Source: an uncultured bacterium | GTDB taxonomy: Bacteria; Omnitrophota; Gorgyraeia; Ghiorseimicrobiales; Ghiorseimicrobiaceae | DNA length: 54,185 bases | Assembly: GCA_913009335.1 (NCBI GenBank) | Contig: CAJVXN010000011.1 | Location: 1-54,185, forward strand | Direction: 5' to 3' | Part shown: positions 9,289-48,457 of the stretch, piece after piece | Layout of the letters: each line of letters opens with the position of its first letter | How positions within the stretch are numbered: the first letter of the stretch is position 1 | The notes under the pieces: model-generated | The model's database searches: none | Told to the model about the DNA's origin: nothing | Seen by the model: only the letters and a program-made list of their open reading frames with translations | Position numbers and translations under genes: made by a program

Positions 9289-11697
9289 CTATTTACCGTA
9301 TCGTCTGAAATAATTTATGGCTTGTTCTAACCCTTCCTCAAGCTTAACTGCCGGCATCCACTTTAAGAGTTTTCTTGCCTTTGCAATATCAGGACAGCGC
9401 ACTTTCGGGTCATCCTGAGGCAAAGATTTAAATATAATCTTACTTCTACTATTAGTAAGCTTGATTATGATTTTAGCTAATTTTAATATTGTAAATTCTA
9501 CCGGATTACCCAGATTAACAGGATCATTAATTTTTGATTTCATTAAACGAAATATTCCTTCAACTAAATCATCTACATAGCAAAAACTACGTGTCTGGCC
9601 GCCTTTACCATAAACAGTAATATTCTTATTAGACAGTGCCTGCGAGATAAAATTCGGAATCGCCCGCCCATCATTCTTTCTCATTTTCGGGCCATAGGTA
9701 TTATGACAGCAAACGCCGTTGCCTGCGACAAAATTCTCTGCTTTTGGTACAGAAAAATCGTAAACGTATGAAGTTGGTCTGCATTTTTTTATTTTCCGAA
9801 CCATAGACCATATTAAATCCCCGCTCTTTTTTGCATTTAGCTTCTGAATAACCCCTTTATCCCACTTCTGAATATCAAATGTTGACAATTCGCATATCGT
9901 TATGCGATAAAATGGAAATTTTCTTTCGCCATATCTTTTTTTAAAAGTTGTTTTATATCTACCCACACAAGATACAATTCCAAAGCGAAGCAATAAATAC
10001 GTAAGATCATCTGCCAATTTTTTGCTTGTTGTATCAAAACATAATTCTTTTCCTAACTTTTTTCCACTATGTGTGCCATCTCCATCCTTAAAGCCTTCTA
10101 AGACATGTTTCAATCTTGATAACGGCAATTGAAATACCCATGAAGGAAACCCGTTCGCGCCTATAACCTTAAAAATTGTATTAAAAATAAAATAAAGTAC
10201 TTTTGAATGTATAAAAATTGCCGGACTTCGTTTCTTCTGATATGGAACTTCAATGATATGTACTCCAAAGTCCTCTTTCAGTATTCGCTTTGCCTTATTT
10301 AACAAGTAAGTATCCGAGGAAAATGTTAAAAAGCAACTCTTGTTTTTCTTATAATGCGAGGAGCCTTCTGCTATATAAAAACCAATCAGCCACAAAATCT
10401 CATTCGTAAGCTTTATGTAATTGGGAGTGATTATATGCGCACCTGCAGCGAAAACTCTTATTTTGGCATCTTGTGGAATATTTATATTTAACTTCTTAAT
10501 AATCCATAACGGTAAAGAAGATGTATGTATATATCTATTTGAAGCGCAGCCAATTGCATTACGCAGATATTTGGCTTTAAAACGCCGGCTCTCTAATAAA
10601 ATCTGACGAATCTCTTTTCTTTGTTTAATTATTGTTTCTTTTAAACTGGAACTGATTATTAAATATCCCCATAACTCCTCATCTTTGCAATTTTTTATTA
10701 CTTCTTGAGATATAGAGAATTTTTCGAAATCTCTTTCAATTGCTGGAAGCTTAGAAGGAATAGCCACATAGTCGCCTGTTTTAAGTCTACGAACGGGGAT
10801 AGGCACAGGCTGTCCATTTTTATCTTTCGTAAATAAACTATGATCCCCTGTAACCTTTACCCTTCTGCCATATCTTAATGAAACTTCGTAGCAATCAGTT
10901 GTGCAAGGATGCTTAATAACTGTTTCTACCCTATAAAGCGCCATCTTAGAAGTTTGCAAATCAAAGGCTGGAACAAAAATTTCGCTATCGGTTATTGTTT
11001 TCCTTTTTTCGAGCGAATCAACGTAATCCTTAATTGGCTCTAAATGTATTTTTTTATCATTAAATACTACTACCTTTTCATTAGCAAGGATACTATTAAA
11101 AATACGCACGATTTTAGTATCCATCCTATGGGTACGATGATAGGCAAGAGTCATTGCTTCAGCAAAACGTTTTGCTTCATCATAAACCCCGCGCGGGCCA
11201 ATGGGATTTACATTGCCCCAGTAACTTTCCGGCTGAGGATGTACTAACGGATCTCCGTAAACCTCAGAAGTTGACGCCAAGACAAAAACTGCCTTTTTAT
11301 CTTTAGCCACCCCCAAAGCATTATGCGTACCCAGGGCACCTACTTTAAGAGTCTGGATGGGATAATTGAGATAATCAATAGGACTGGCGGGAGAAGCAAA
11401 ATGTAATACATAATCTATTTTCTGCCTTAGCCTTATATATTTATAGACATTATGCTTAACAAATCTAAAATCCTTATTTTTTGCTAAATGCTTTATATTA
11501 CTAAACCTGCCTGTCATAAGATTATCCATGCATATGACACGATAACCTTCCCCAAGCAGTTTTTCACAAATATGAGAACCAATAAAACCGGCACCGCCGG
11601 TAACTAAGGCTGTTTTTTTCACCCCGTTAGAGATAGGCCGCTTAGTAAGCGCCCGTCTATTAGCTAAAATCCGCTTATATAACCTTCTATTTTTCAT
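9289..11697 (-). CDS. UDP-glucuronate decarboxylase-type SDR with intein
   Basis: An 802-residue precursor. N-extein 1-201 carries the Rossmann motif GGAGFIGSH (34-42), the catalytic YxxxK (Y172, K176) and ends ...RIFN. C-extein 667-802 resumes [17 protein letters not shown] with [14 protein letters not shown]. Joined, they rebuild the UXS/UDP-glucuronate decarboxylase signature RIFNTYGP. Residues 202-666 are an intein. Spliced length would be 337 residues, normal for the family after a 25-residue N-terminal extension. The ATG at 11697 has no clear Shine-Dalgarno; a GTG at 11622 ([10 protein letters not shown]) is a plausible alternative start and would remove the extension encoded by an inverted repeat. 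UXS makes UDP-xylose from UDP-glucuronate, which the adjacent ugd could supply. Confidence 0.88.
9700..11094 (-). mobile_element. LAGLIDADG-type intein in the SDR active region
   Basis: In-frame insertion of 465 residues (202-666 of the precursor) between Asn201 and a Thr at +1. It starts with Ser1 ([11 protein letters not shown]), has a block B histidine motif ([10 protein letters not shown]), two dodecapeptide endonuclease motifs ([14 protein letters not shown] and [14 protein letters not shown]), then block F ([14 protein letters not shown]) and block G ending VCCHN with the usual His-Asn. It is therefore predicted to splice and to encode a homing endonuclease. The inserted site is the conserved RIFN/TYGP motif, typical of inteins that target invariant residues. 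Confidence 0.92.
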
Positions 11698-16461: not shown

Positions 16462-16508
16462 ATTATAACAAATGACAACCTAAATGACAACCTAAATGAC
16501 AACCTAAA
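16462..16508 (-). promoter_or_regulatory. fic promoter built on three 12-bp tandem repeats
   Basis: Three exact copies of TGACAACCTAAA (plus strand) occupy 16473-16484, 16485-16496 and 16497-16508. On the minus strand each contains TTGTCA. The middle copy lies exactly 17 bases from the -10 TATAAT (16467-16462), making a near-consensus sigma-70 promoter. Only 6 bases separate the -10 from the ATG at 16455, so the transcript should begin at or next to the start codon. The repeats could also be operator sites for the Fic winged helix (inference). Confidence 0.75.
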
Positions 16509-16570
16509 TAGCAACTAATTTTAGACGGGAAACCTATTGTGCTTAAAATAAATGATGAGCTAAAAAGATA

Positions 16571-18976: not shown

Positions 18977-20434
18977 TCAACCTTTGATTACTCCCAATGG
19001 ACGCATGCGAACTACCTTTTTAGAAATACCTGCTTTATCTATTACACCAACAACGTCATTTACATCTTTATAGGCATCGGGAGCCTCTTCAACGATTGTC
19101 TTGCGTCCGGATGCTCTAACTATTATACCCTTAGATTCCAATGTCTTTAAAAGTTTATTATAATCTATAGTCCGCGCTGCCTCGGTGCGGGACATAACCC
19201 TGCCTGCTCCGTGGCAGGCACTATAAAAAGTCTCACTAGCCTTTTTTGTACCTACCAAAAGATACGAATTCCTGCCCATATCCCCGGGTATAATCACAGG
19301 CTGTCCTGTTTTCTTGTATCTATCCGGCAATTCAGGATGATCTGGGCCGAAAGCGCGCGTTGCGCCCTTACGATGAACGCAAAGCTCCTTATTTTTACCA
19401 TTAACAACGTGCTTCTCTATTTTTGCAATATTATGAGCAACATCATATATCAAGCTCATGCCCATATTCTGCCAACTCTTAGAAAATGTTTTCTCAAATA
19501 CCTTACGCACACGATACATAAGGCACTGGCGATTCACCCAGGCATAATTCGCAGCAGCCCTCATCGCGCCTAAATATTGTCTGCCTTCAATTGATTTAAC
19601 GGGCGCGCAAGCAAGCTGCCGATCAGGCACATTGATATTATATTTAGAAAGAGATTTAATCATCCGCCTTGAGTAATCATCGCATACCTGATAGCCCAAA
19701 CCGCGCGAACCGGAATGAATCATAATTGTTAACTGCCCCAGCCTTAGACCAAACGCATCAGCTATATCCTGATCATAGACTTGATCTATAACCTGTAATT
19801 CTAAAAAATGATTTCCGGAACCTAAAGTACCGGATTGCGCCTTTCCTCTCTCGTAAGCTCTATCAGATACTGCATCCGGATCAGCGCCGGATATTGCGCC
19901 ATATTCTTCCGTGCACTCTAAATCATCTTTTACGCCAAAACCTTTAGCAACAGCCCATCTTGCGCCTTTTAGAAATAATTCTTTTTCCTCTCTGCGACTT
20001 ACGCGAATATCACCCTTAGAGCCCACTCCCGACGGAACATCTGAAAATAATCCTGCGACCAAACTACTAATTTTATCTTTAATTTCATCATAGGTAAAAT
20101 CCGTTCTCAATAATCTGATCCCGCAATTTATATCAAAACCAACCCCTCCCGGCGAAACCACTCCCCCTTCTTCAATATCTGTTGCCGCCACCCCGCCGAT
20201 AGGAAAACCATAGCCCCAATGTATATCAGGCATAGCCAAAGACGCGCCTACGATGCCGGGTAAAAACGCTACATTAGATACCTGCTCCATGGCTTTATCC
20301 TGACGGATACTTGCTATTAACTTATCATCGGCATAAATAATACCATCAACACGCATACCCTTTTTATAACTCTTAGGTATGCGAAAACGGTAATCATCGA
20401 TTTTCTCTAAAGGCCCCTGCCAAAGATTAGACAT
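18977..20434 (-). CDS. rtcB: RtcB RNA ligase
   Basis: A 485-residue GTP- and Mn-dependent 3'-phosphate RNA ligase that joins 2',3'-cyclic phosphate or 3'-phosphate ends to 5'-OH ends, as in tRNA repair. Metal-site motifs are present: GGVGFDINCGIRLL with the conserved Cys, LGSGNHFLE, HSGSRGLG, and the guanylate-binding region HRKGATRAFGP. The C-terminal MRPLGVIKG is also typical. It follows the archease gene by 14 bases, forming the classic RtcB-archease pair, and sits beside a tRNA cluster containing duplicated tRNA 3' ends. Confidence 0.96.
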   Translation of the reverse strand: MSNLWQGPLEKIDDYRFRIPKSYKKGMRVDGIIYADDKLIASIRQDKAMEQVSNVAFLPGIVGASLAMPDIHWGYGFPIGGVAATDIEEGGVVSPGGVGFDINCGIRLLRTDFTYDEIKDKISSLVAGLFSDVPSGVGSKGDIRVSRREEKELFLKGARWAVAKGFGVKDDLECTEEYGAISGADPDAVSDRAYERGKAQSGTLGSGNHFLELQVIDQVYDQDIADAFGLRLGQLTIMIHSGSRGLGYQVCDDYSRRMIKSLSKYNINVPDRQLACAPVKSIEGRQYLGAMRAAANYAWVNRQCLMYRVRKVFEKTFSKSWQNMGMSLIYDVAHNIAKIEKHVVNGKNKELCVHRKGATRAFGPDHPELPDRYKKTGQPVIIPGDMGRNSYLLVGTKKASETFYSACHGAGRVMSRTEAARTIDYNKLLKTLESKGIIVRASGRKTIVEEAPDAYKDVNDVVGVIDKAGISKKVVRMRPLGVIKG

Positions 20435-20448
20435 ATTTTTTCCTTATC

Positions 20449-20868
20449 CTAAACATCAAATATTACTTCAGCTTGCCACTTACCCTGTTTCTCTTCTATT
20501 TTTAAGTCGTGATAGGTTGCGGCTTTAATTTCAGTATTTACCTTGTAATTCTTTAAACTCTGTCCCCATGCTATAGCCTTAATGCCTTTACTATCTATTT
20601 TTTTTATATCAAAATCATCAAAGATTAAATCTTTGATTGCCGAAAGTGACAATAATTCATTGAGCCAGTTTATAAAGAGCTCATCCAAGTCATTTGCCTC
20701 CTGGGCTATCTCAATTTTCTCACGACGAGAATTTACTTTTTTTTCTTTTTGAGCAATAATATCAAACATGGCTAAAGCAGCATTTTTAAATAGTTCTTTT
20801 AAATTACCCCCTTCTAGCTTAACACCTAAATCTGCCGTATGGTCAATTAGCTTATAATCTTTCATCAT
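20449..20868 (-). CDS. Archease, RtcB activator
   Basis: A 139-residue archease. The conserved start YKLIDHTADLGVKLEG contains the family Asp residues, and the acidic middle DELFINWLNELLSL and the C-terminal aspartate in AEVIFDV complete the metal-binding cluster. It resets RtcB for multiple turnovers by aiding guanylylation. It is directly upstream of rtcB in the same operon. Two adjacent ATG codons are possible starts. Confidence 0.94.
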   Translation of the reverse strand: MMKDYKLIDHTADLGVKLEGGNLKELFKNAALAMFDIIAQKEKKVNSRREKIEIAQEANDLDELFINWLNELLSLSAIKDLIFDDFDIKKIDSKGIKAIAWGQSLKNYKVNTEIKAATYHDLKIEEKQGKWQAEVIFDV

Positions 20869-20946: not shown

Positions 20947-21148
20947 TATAAATATTTAGTGAGCCGCGAAGGAATCAAACCGTCGGAGCTATCGCTCCTC
21001 CTCATACCCCGCCTTTGGCGGGGTCACGATGCTCCTCGTTTACACTCGTCGCTGTCACCCCGCAGCATAACAAAGAAGCTATTCTTGAGGGGAAATTTTT
21101 TCCCCTCAAACTCCCCATTAGGTTCGCTTCTGTATTATAAATATTTAG
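20947..21148 (-). repeat. tRNA-linked hairpin element A (after tRNA-Lys)
   Basis: Non-coding 200-base segment directly 3' of tRNA-Lys. A 35-base direct repeat (20947-20981 and 21136-21170, one mismatch) contains the last 22 bases of the tRNA (T-loop to discriminator) plus 13 bases of flank. Between them lie a CCCCGCC-TTT-GGCGGGG hairpin (21007-21023) and an 11-bp stem (TTGAGGGGAAA / TTTCCCCTCAA, about 21085-21109). Sequence between the hairpins matches elements near tRNA-Gln and thiL. Confidence 0.75.
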
Positions 21149-21221
21149 TGAGCCGCGAAGGAATCGAACCTTCAACCTTGACCTTAAGAGGGTCCTGCTC
21201 TGCCAGTTGAGCTAGCGGCCC
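21149..21221 (-). tRNA. tRNA-Lys (CUU)
   Basis: Minus-strand tRNA with acceptor GGGCCGC/GCGGCTC (one G-U), D-arm AGCTCAACTGGCAGAGC, anticodon loop CTCTTAA (anticodon CUU), T-arm GAAGG-TTCGATT-CCTTC, discriminator A. CCA is not encoded. The anticodon stem has a G-A mismatch at its outer end (27-43). Confidence 0.93.
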
Positions 21222-21276
21222 GTGAAAACGGTTATATTATACCACAAGTTTCGTTTTTTAAAAGAAGAGATAAAAG

Positions 21277-21470
21277 CGCGCCTGGTAAGGACTCCGCTTC
21301 GCTTGAACCTGTCGAAGCATATGCTCCTCCTTAAGAAAAAACCCTGATGGTTTTTCCTTAATGTTCCTTTTCCTTCCGCAAGGAGCAAATACCCCTTAAG
21401 AGGGAACTACCTTCCCTCTTAAGAATCTCCTTTTTGGTTCTCGTCCTGCTTGGACTTTATTATTATTTAT
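21277..21470 (-). repeat. tRNA-linked hairpin element B (after tRNA-Arg)
   Basis: Directly 3' of tRNA-Arg. The far end (21277-21311) holds a diverged copy of the tRNA 3' end: CGCGCCTG then AGGACTC, interrupted in the T-loop by CGCTTCGCTT before GAACCTG. Internal structure: a 12-bp stem CTTAAGAGGGAA / TTCCCTCTTAAG (about 21395-21423) and an AAAAACC / GGTTTTT hairpin (about 21336-21356). The layout matches element A but the stem sequences differ, which suggests that structure is conserved. Confidence 0.65.
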
Positions 21471-21543
21471 CGCGCCTGACAGGACTCGAACCTGCAACAC
21501 CTAGTTCCGAAGACTAGTGCTCTATCCATTGAACTACAGGCGC
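21471..21543 (-). tRNA. tRNA-Arg (UCG)
   Basis: Minus-strand tRNA: acceptor GCGCCTG/CAGGCGC, anticodon stem CTAGT/ACTAG with loop CTTCGGA (anticodon UCG), T-arm GCAGG-TTCGAGT-CCTGT, discriminator G, CCA not encoded. Confidence 0.95.
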
Positions 21544-21599
21544 ATCATTCTCTATATCCTATCCAACACCTGCACAGAAATAAATCACTTCGCAGACTT

Positions 21600-21740
21600 A
21601 TCAGAAATTTTTCGCGCTCTCGTTGACGCTCATTCTCCATAGGGGCCAGCCCCTCTGGCGTTCACCTTCGGTTCACTGTCACCCCGGAAACATGGGGAAA
21701 AATCTTTCCCCATACCCCTTTATGTTTTTGCAATAGGAAA
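21600..21740 (-). repeat. Orphan hairpin element C
   Basis: Between thiL and tRNA-Arg. It shares GGTTCACTGTCACCCC and a 9-bp ATGGGGAAA / TTTCCCCAT stem (about 21689-21710) with the elements at tRNA-Lys and tRNA-Gln, and has AGGGGC/GCCCCT in place of the CCCCGCC/GGCGGGG hairpin. No tRNA 3' copy is seen on either side, so it is either decayed or inserted elsewhere. The whole 21544-21807 gap contains no gene. Confidence 0.6.
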
Positions 21741-32645: not shown

Positions 32646-33449
32646 CTAGACTACTTCACAATTAGCCCCTAGAATATTTTTTATTTTTCTAAGGGTATTT
32701 TTATCCGGGGCCAAAACTCCAACTTGCGAGGCACACCTTTTAGGTGTATTAAGATGAATTTTATCCGGCTTAATCTTTACTAGTAAATCATTTAACTTCT
32801 TAAAATTATCTATTTTATCATTTATCCCTTTAATTACCATTACTTCTAAATAAATCTTGCCCTTAAATTCCCGGCGTAGATTAACCAAGCCATCAATTAT
32901 GCTTTCAACGCTGCCAGACCCTTCTGGCTTATAGCTTTGGCTATCGGTTGCCAAACCATCGCCTTCTGGCTTATAGCTTTGGCTATCGGTTGCCAAACCA
33001 TCGCCTTCCGGCTTATCAATTGCGACATAGGTATCTTTATCTATTGCATCTAAAGAAGGTATGATTAAATCAACATCTAGAATCTCTCCTCTTATATCTT
33101 TACGGGATAAAAAATAAGCATTAGTTATCAAAGCAATAGGAATAGGTGTAATTTCCTTTATCTGCTTAATTAAGAGAGAAATCTTTGAATTCAGAAGAGG
33201 CTCTCCTGTTCCGGATAAAGTAATATAGTCAATATGCATATTTTTAAAATCAGGCGTTCGGACAAAAGACTTAAGTTCCGTTAATATATCTTTAATCTTA
33301 ATATATTCTTTCCTCTGTGTCGTCTTCTTCGTCGTATGGCCTAATTGACAATATATGCAGTCATAGTTACATAATTTATAAGGAACCAGGGATAGCCCTA
33401 AGGAATAACCGATTCTTCTTGATTTTACAGGTCCGTAAATATATTTCAT
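32646..33449 (-). CDS. Radical SAM protein, COG0731 type
   Basis: A 267-residue radical SAM enzyme of the COG0731 group (relatives of the archaeal wyosine enzyme), function unknown in bacteria. The [4Fe-4S] motif CNYDCIYC is at C27, C31, C34, followed by LSGTGEPLL (79-87), a SAM-binding GGEP-like motif. Residues about 146-178 are a low-complexity insertion: two 14-residue units KPEGDGLATDSQSY and a third start. It is encoded by a palindromic DNA repeat. Remaining length matches the family. Confidence 0.88.
   Translation of the reverse strand: MKYIYGPVKSRRIGYSLGLSLVPYKLCNYDCIYCQLGHTTKKTTQRKEYIKIKDILTELKSFVRTPDFKNMHIDYITLSGTGEPLLNSKISLLIKQIKEITPIPIALITNAYFLSRKDIRGEILDVDLIIPSLDAIDKDTYVAIDKPEGDGLATDSQSYKPEGDGLATDSQSYKPEGSGSVESIIDGLVNLRREFKGKIYLEVMVIKGINDKIDNFKKLNDLLVKIKPDKIHLNTPKRCASQVGVLAPDKNTLRKIKNILGANCEVV
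32920..33016. repeat. In-frame 42-bp palindromic repeat array
   Basis: Two exact 42-base units (32920-32961, 32962-33003) plus 13 bases of a third. Each holds the palindrome TTTGGCTATCGGTTGCCAAA (32936-32955, 32978-32997). Because 42 is divisible by three the host reading frame is kept, giving the KPEGDGLATDSQSY repeats in the protein. Not CRISPR: no unique spacers. Confidence 0.92.
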
Positions 33450-48218: not shown

Positions 48219-48386
48219 GCTGGGACGCCTGGACTCCGCTTCGCTCTGAACCTGTCGCTTGCGCTCCCCATACCCCGCCTTTGGCGGGGTCAAGGCGTTC
48301 CTCACTTACATTCGTCACCGTCACCCCAACAACATGGGGAAAGAATTTCCCCATCCCCCTTTCGGTTCTCACCCAGGCAACATTAG
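48219..48386 (-). repeat. tRNA-linked hairpin element D (after tRNA-Gln)
   Basis: Directly 3' of tRNA-Gln. The far end carries 18 bases identical to the tRNA 3' end (GCTGGGACGCCTGGACTC at 48219-48236 versus 48386-48403), then an 11-base insertion (CGCTTCGCTCT) before GAACC, interrupting the T-loop. Inside: CCCCGCC-TTT-GGCGGGG (48273-48289) and a 9-bp ATGGGGAAA / TTTCCCCAT stem (48333-48353). The segment between the hairpins is very similar to element A. Confidence 0.8.
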
Positions 48387-48457
48387 CTGGGACGCCTGGA
48401 CTCGAACCAGGATACCAAGACCCAAAATCTTGTGTCCTACCATTAGACGACATCCCA
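48387..48457 (-). tRNA. tRNA-Gln (UUG)
   Basis: Minus-strand tRNA: acceptor TGGGATG/CGTCCCA with one T-G pair, anticodon stem CAAGA/TCTTG and loop TTTTGGG (anticodon UUG), T-arm CCTGG-TTCGAGT-CCAGG, discriminator G, CCA not encoded. The U1-A72 weak first pair is characteristic of tRNA-Gln. Confidence 0.95.

Follow-up and report, generated by a model that had tools for sequence, protein, structure and literature searches.

Stable RNA genes in the source genome and in its relatives carry a family of small structured elements that is very probably mobile and non-autonomous, and whose insertion duplicates the end of the gene that is entered. One such family with target-duplicating insertion is the best explanation overall and one that we consider likely, whereas recombination as single-strand hairpins is proposed with less confidence. 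Its most unusual feature is an inverted, target-specific left arm, which was overlooked in the preliminary description of this DNA. No description of the family was found in the libraries of RNA families and papers that were searched: no Rfam family (HEARO included) matched the elements at either the gathering or a permissive threshold, the only hits being tRNA, rRNA and a separate group I intron, and the literature search found no named family with such a layout, in agreement with what had been supposed from the sequence. In the following, G numbers denote genomes sampled, L numbers denote loci examined, and the window is the whole stretch of 54,185 nt that was analysed.

Layout and distribution of the elements

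The elements are about 110-210 nt long, fold strongly, contain no genes and have a core of 100-150 nt that is common to the different targets. Read on the tRNA strand, the order is the tRNA, including T-arm and acceptor end (copy 1), a native flank of ~4-60 nt in which the terminator is often included, the left arm, the core and a second tRNA end (copy 2), which spans the T-arm (or the variable loop) through the 3′ end and often includes the start of the flank again. The duplication in these tRNA-type copies is roughly 30-80 nt and varies in length. Among the 63 elements with a tRNA at most 100 nt upstream, copy 2 matched at 14 or more of 17 bases in 52, while only 1.4% reached this level when the same tRNA ends were compared with the flanks of other elements. 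The orientation was that of the tRNA strand both where a tRNA lies upstream (63/63) and where it lies downstream only (9/9). In some copies (L053, L089 and L117) the second tRNA end or a good arm is missing. The preliminary description had proposed integration into the T-loop with restoration of the 3′ end. This reading is supported, except that the T-loop is not the insertion point in every case, the point varying between variable loop and T-stem. In addition, 5S rRNA, tmRNA and protein-gene ends are targets, with one insertion lying antisense to 5S rRNA (L118).

In the window, 3′-end elements lie behind tRNA-Lys, tRNA-Arg and tRNA-Gln (Table 1). The layout recognised earlier at Lys and Arg is real, but the account was incomplete in that the Gln element and a core upstream of tRNA-Arg were missed. 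The Lys duplication is as claimed, including the 13 bases past the tRNA, and the corresponding 36-mer matched at 34/36 bases compared with a best of 20/36 across 200 flank shuffles. The Lys core was detected with covariance model R1 at 126 bits (E=4.1e-27), although this core was also in the training set. The diverged Arg copy with its split T-loop is likewise present, the split being caused by GCTTCGCTT, a small hairpin at 21296-21304. Inserts of this kind split the T-loop of copy 2 at many other loci, and where the left arm reads ..GAGAACC a small hairpin is often found there. The Arg core is ~91% identical to the core behind tRNA-Arg(ACG) on contig C56. In the extra core, which is of the U-type, the left arm CAAAAACAT pairs with ATGTTTTTG. 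The only ORF in the window unit is a chance ORF overlapping the tRNA.

Table 1. Positions of the tRNA-associated elements and their parts in the window
Feature	Position	Strand	Support
tRNA-Lys (CTT), intact host gene of Lys element	21148/21149..21221	-	ARAGORN; Rfam tRNA 61 bits
Lys direct-repeat copy 1: T-arm to tRNA-Lys 3′ end + 13 nt flank	21136..21170	-	
Lys left arm GAAGCGAACCT, near reverse complement of Lys T-arm AGGTTCGATTC	21120..21130	-	
Lys core: hairpin 1, GGGGTGACAGCGA segment, internal hairpins, terminal GGAGCGATAGCTCCGAC	20982..21119	-	
Lys copy 2: tRNA-Lys 3′ end + flank, 34/35 identical to copy 1	20947..20981	-	
tRNA-Arg (TCG), host gene of Arg element	21470..21544	-	ARAGORN, Rfam
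Arg left arm GCAGGACGAGAACC, near reverse complement of Arg T-arm	21436..21449	-	
Arg core, class B, two long hairpins	21313..21435	-	
Arg copy 2: tRNA-Arg 3′ end, diverged	about 21277..21312	-	
Extra core, U-type, upstream of tRNA-Arg 5′ end	21619..21729	-	covariance model E=1.1e-12
tRNA-Gln (TTG), host of the third 3′-end element	48386..48457	-	ARAGORN
Gln core	48254..48370	-	covariance model 97.9 bits, E=2.2e-20; also training sequence
Gln copy 2: tRNA-Gln 3′ end, exact 18/18	48219..48236	-	

U-type copies elsewhere (L056, L094, L107, L146, L155, L157, L144, L159, L161 and L062) lie upstream of a tRNA, directly abutting its 5′ end, and have promoter-like DNA in the loop of the last hairpin. 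Other features of the window were observed alongside the elements. An RtcB-like RNA ligase gene and an archease-like gene (by eye; 18977-20868) directly adjoin tRNA-Lys and its element, and the 12-nt tandem repeat AAATGACAACCT is found directly behind tRNA-Ser (16470-16515). An NAD-dependent epimerase of 802 aa (9289-11697) is apparently interrupted by an intein (by eye; the long insert ends before TYGPKMR), and at 32646-33449 the in-frame repeat KPEGDGLATDSQSY lies within the coding sequence of a Radical-SAM-like ORF.

The source genome has 42 tRNA genes (Rfam model), at least 8 of which (Met, Asp, two Arg, Ala, Lys, Gln and Trp) display the layout, here with elements of 150-210 nt. A covariance model gave 21 core copies in this genome, of which the 11 used to build the model match by construction. 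The core is also found behind 5S rRNA, behind a tmRNA-like end and in front of protein genes, where it ends directly before the Shine-Dalgarno site. At the genus level the search set was the source genome alone, and in genomes of the same family the element occurs behind tRNA-Thr, Val, Met, Leu and Ala. In the class sample, 68 of 384 genomes had a match at E<=1e-5, which is a lower bound since only eight candidates per genome were scored. The search for further copies at tRNA 3′ ends thus found them in dozens of related genomes. An exact two-box pattern applied to the GTDB species representatives returned 65 stretches, mostly titled Omnitrophota; the remainder include Rokubacteria, Geothrix, Holophagaceae, Marinamargulisbacteria, FCPU426, Methylomirabilota and a 'Clostridia' MAG, and the taxon of single MAG contigs should be treated cautiously. 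No match was obtained in an exact-pattern scan of IMG/VR. On a Marinamargulisbacteria contig, a separate group I intron (L175:2106-2373, 90.6 bits) is located just upstream of the element at a tmRNA-like end, and another bacterial MAG, UBA9089, has minimal GGGGTGACAGCG..GCGCCA units in tandem arrays (L194, L206 and L223).

Target-matched arms, insertion and fold

The left arm immediately precedes the core, is ~7-15 nt long and reads as the reverse complement of the beginning of copy 2, that is, of the start of the duplicated target. Target-derived arms in inverted orientation therefore surround the core (..GGACTTGAACC-core-GGTTCAAGTCC..). Arm complementarity was higher to the own tRNA (median 9) than to other isotypes (5; paired Wilcoxon p = 2e-11), with clear cases at tRNA-Trp (L120, AGGACTTGAACCT), tRNA-Asp (L109, GGGATTTGAAC) and tRNA-Ala (L087, TCCTGACCCC). 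In the window the arm pairs with the T-arm at both the Lys and the Arg locus; for Lys the complementarity was 8.5 against a control median of 6, and in comparison with other isotypes the own tRNA ranked in the top 3%. Exact arms of 10-15 nt were found at 5S rRNA and other non-tRNA targets (14-15 nt at 5S), and the arm at the 5S rRNA end in the source genome, CTACCTACTCTCCCA, matches at 15/15. Matching arms at targets other than T-arms also occur in G171, at an antisense 5S hairpin, and in G053, at a gene end. U-type and coding-type copies carry an element-borne left hairpin, so that the target does not supply the whole arm in every copy. We tentatively suggest that each insertion may copy a part of the target, inverted, into the element and so give rise to a complementary arm specific for that target. 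If true, the recognition arm of such a mobile element would be rewritten from each site entered, with the hairpins of stable-RNA genes as landing sites throughout the phylum.

Empty sites in relatives connect the duplication to the insertion. The tRNA-Thr(TGT)/tRNA-Tyr locus is occupied in G267, while G297 (same genus), G158, G301 and G376 are without the element and have a single tRNA end. The flank of the empty site resembles both flanks of the G267 site, and ~15 nt of flank is duplicated as well. The duplication therefore came with the insertion, and the concern raised in the preliminary description, that the duplicated ends might predate the element, is thereby removed. Adjoining an empty site in G297, an intron-like insert was observed in the tRNA-Tyr gene (L299). 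Decayed remnants are found in G366 and G281, and at tRNA-Arg(CCG) in G258.

The nearest core was found at a different anticodon for 58 of 65 tRNA-linked cores, and cores therefore move between tRNAs. In G362 the Thr, Arg and Asp cores are 92-93% identical and the Pro core is also closely similar. At tRNA-Arg(CCT) the arms are kept among related genomes while the core classes differ, and tandem units are present at L063, L110 and L142. The units thus behave like cassettes, which occur in tandem and in which arms stay and cores are exchanged. A dispersed subfamily in G258 has ~36 matches with terminal inverted repeats TAGTGCnCCGTTAAnTTAATT and a flank duplication of the CTAN type. The flank base N is equal in 10/11 and an internal base is complementary to N in 9/11, which is the arm rule in miniature. 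Single-end and partial-end matches in G258 were examined for an autonomous version, and none of these flanks a transposase.

The fold of the core is conserved. In the alignment of 52 short-class cores the GGGGTRACAGCGA and GCGCCAKAGGGGC boxes are conserved and two-sided covariation is evident (hairpin 1; columns 64/95, with C-G 32, U-A 14 and G-C 4). Fold energy was lower on the tRNA-sense strand in 98% of the copies, and G-U pairs made up 10% on this strand compared with 4% on the complement. The greater stability and G-U content of the sense strand indicate selection on one strand, as RNA or as single-stranded DNA.

Mechanism, enzyme and alternative explanations

A hypothesis which may explain these observations, and which we favour with reservation over a route through RNA and reverse transcription, is that a folded single strand is recombined at hairpins of the target. 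The element would act in the tRNA-sense orientation through a single-stranded intermediate, and its ends would be recombined into the target hairpin (T-arm, 5S, tmRNA or gene end) by a trans-acting enzyme, presumably a recombinase. The handling could be comparable to that of an integron attC site, with arms around a variable structured tip, or of an HUH element. On insertion the host tRNA stays intact, since the stretch from the T-arm (or variable loop) to the 3′ end is duplicated together with a few to some tens of nt of flank, and the core comes to lie between both target copies. In the favoured scheme the arm would be templated from the target at insertion.

The preliminary view that the elements are non-autonomous is supported, given that the units (~200 nt) have no ORF of their own and encode no enzyme, and that several carrier genomes lack a reverse transcriptase and several lack a Y1 transposase. 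No enzyme consistently linked to the elements was found among the loci examined. The Y1/RAYT transposase was rejected as an obligate partner: it is absent from 3 of 14 carriers (G053, G340 and G384; drafts, ~90% complete), and 30 Y1 loci had no core nearby, while the sole core beside a Y1 stretch belongs to the tRNA-Arg element of L148. A longer autonomous version carrying a recombinase, as envisaged in the preliminary description, was sought and none was confirmed. The only recombinase-linked case among the loci examined is in G114 (contig C2, L122:1187-2653), where a large serine recombinase with the Pfam domains Resolvase, Recombinase and Zn ribbon lies at tRNA-Arg between two units of 169 nt that are 98% identical. 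Because this gene ends within the tRNA copy and none of the other loci examined has one, we think that an independent recombinase element entered a tandem array, rather than that this is the autonomous version, although a gene-bearing relative is also conceivable.

It is also conceivable, if rather unlikely, that a joint transcript of the element and its host gene returns to the DNA by target-primed reverse transcription. After a nick in the bottom strand at the T-arm and reverse transcription of the RNA, the cDNA end would snap back on its own primer to yield the inverted left arm, and the long duplication would represent the gap between two nicks. Such a route would accommodate the sense direction of all tRNA-linked copies, the better and G-U-richer fold of the sense strand, the variable length of the duplication and the fact that the left arm and copy 2 begin at the same target position. 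A retron-type reverse transcriptase protein is expressed in Velamenicoccus (PMC13153191), which was also counted in its favour. However, 11 of 15 carrier genomes (drafts, ~90% complete) yielded no RVT_1 protein, among them G362 with its young copies, and a resident reverse transcriptase is accordingly unsupported as an obligate partner. Neither poly-A nor any other signature of reverse transcription was found, and the insertion antisense to 5S rRNA (L118) argues in the same direction.

An immobile origin, by local duplication of tRNA ends around a conserved structured DNA and with arms perfected by quasi-palindrome correction (template switching at an imperfect hairpin), is already disfavoured and appears very improbable. 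The T-arm itself is a near palindrome common to all tRNAs, so that imperfect arms could be corrected, and at tRNA-Gly (L105) the arm fits Asp better. An immobile origin does not account for the exact arms at targets unrelated to the T-arm (14-15 nt at 5S, gene ends), for similar cores at different tRNAs in one genome and empty sites in relatives, or for the dispersed G258 matches with their terminal inverted repeats and flank duplication.

The covarying fold, the sense orientation and the copies just before Shine-Dalgarno sites would also suit a resident structured RNA (tRNA trailer, attenuator or sRNA) that is kept for regulation and spread occasionally, and the copies between tRNA-Leu and tRNA-Gly in G000, G258 and G340 are probably orthologous. 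Patchy presence among sister species, the decay of orthologous sites (G366, G281 and G258) and the dispersal over unrelated genes in no fixed position speak against this explanation, which we regard as highly improbable. Finally, tRNA-targeting integrative elements are classically recognised by a duplicated tRNA 3′ end (PMC9897764), which might, with the G114 locus, suggest gene-stripped scars of a phage, ICE or serine-recombinase element, but this is scarcely probable, since a conserved 100-150-nt core common to more than 12 tRNA isotypes and to non-tRNA targets is not expected of decay products from unrelated islands and G114 is a single case among the loci examined.

Comparison with known systems

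The elements resemble MITEs and other non-autonomous insertion elements in being small, gene-less and dispersed, and the G258 and Geothrix-type subfamily has terminal inverted repeats and a short target duplication. The tRNA-type copies have instead target-derived arms and the longer duplication that restores the tRNA, and the family differs from MITEs also by its conserved multi-hairpin core, by the target-matched internal arm and in that no partner transposase is known. With integron attC sites and gene cassettes, CALIN arrays included, the elements have in common complementary outer arms, GTT/AAC-like ends, a variable structured tip, tandem units and similar cores with different flanking cargo. 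In contrast to integron cassettes, the 'cargo' here is a tRNA 3′ end and the targets are many tRNA isotypes. The paired R''/L'' and L'/R' boxes of attC were not found: the outer arms pair, but the two ends of the core, AAAGGGG and GGGGAG, do not complement one another, and the core is therefore not an attC site.

Like tRNA-targeting integrative elements (tyrosine recombinase islands, prophages and ICEs), the elements have a direct repeat of the tRNA 3′ end, an intact and functional tRNA, and empty sites in relatives. They differ from these in comprising ~200 nt without genes or integrase, and in that one core family is found not only at many isotypes but also at 5S, tmRNA and gene ends. REP/REPIN sequences with RAYT (Y1) and IS200/IS605-type PATEs are similar in their single-strand hairpins and GGAG-like foot, and Y1 genes are common in the carrier genomes, but, as described above, Y1 is missing from some carriers and not linked to cores; REP/RAYT and IS200/IS605-type systems are not known to make a target duplication. 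Casposon-type elements also insert at tRNA 3′ ends with target duplication, but the elements here have no casposase and different ends, and casposons are not known to have a target-matched arm. No Rfam model of a group I or group II intron matched the elements. Integrons, REP/RAYT, introns and classical integrative elements are thus each at variance with the family in at least one tested feature.

The element family explains odd tRNA 3′ fragments in Omnitrophota genomes and is a warning for the annotation of tRNAs and genomic islands. The many natural pairs of target and arm in this poorly studied phylum make the insertion rule testable. If the present reading is true, an element that carries no genes, can enter many tRNA isotypes, 5S rRNA and tmRNA harmlessly and has an arm matched to each target would represent an unusual solution to safe insertion.
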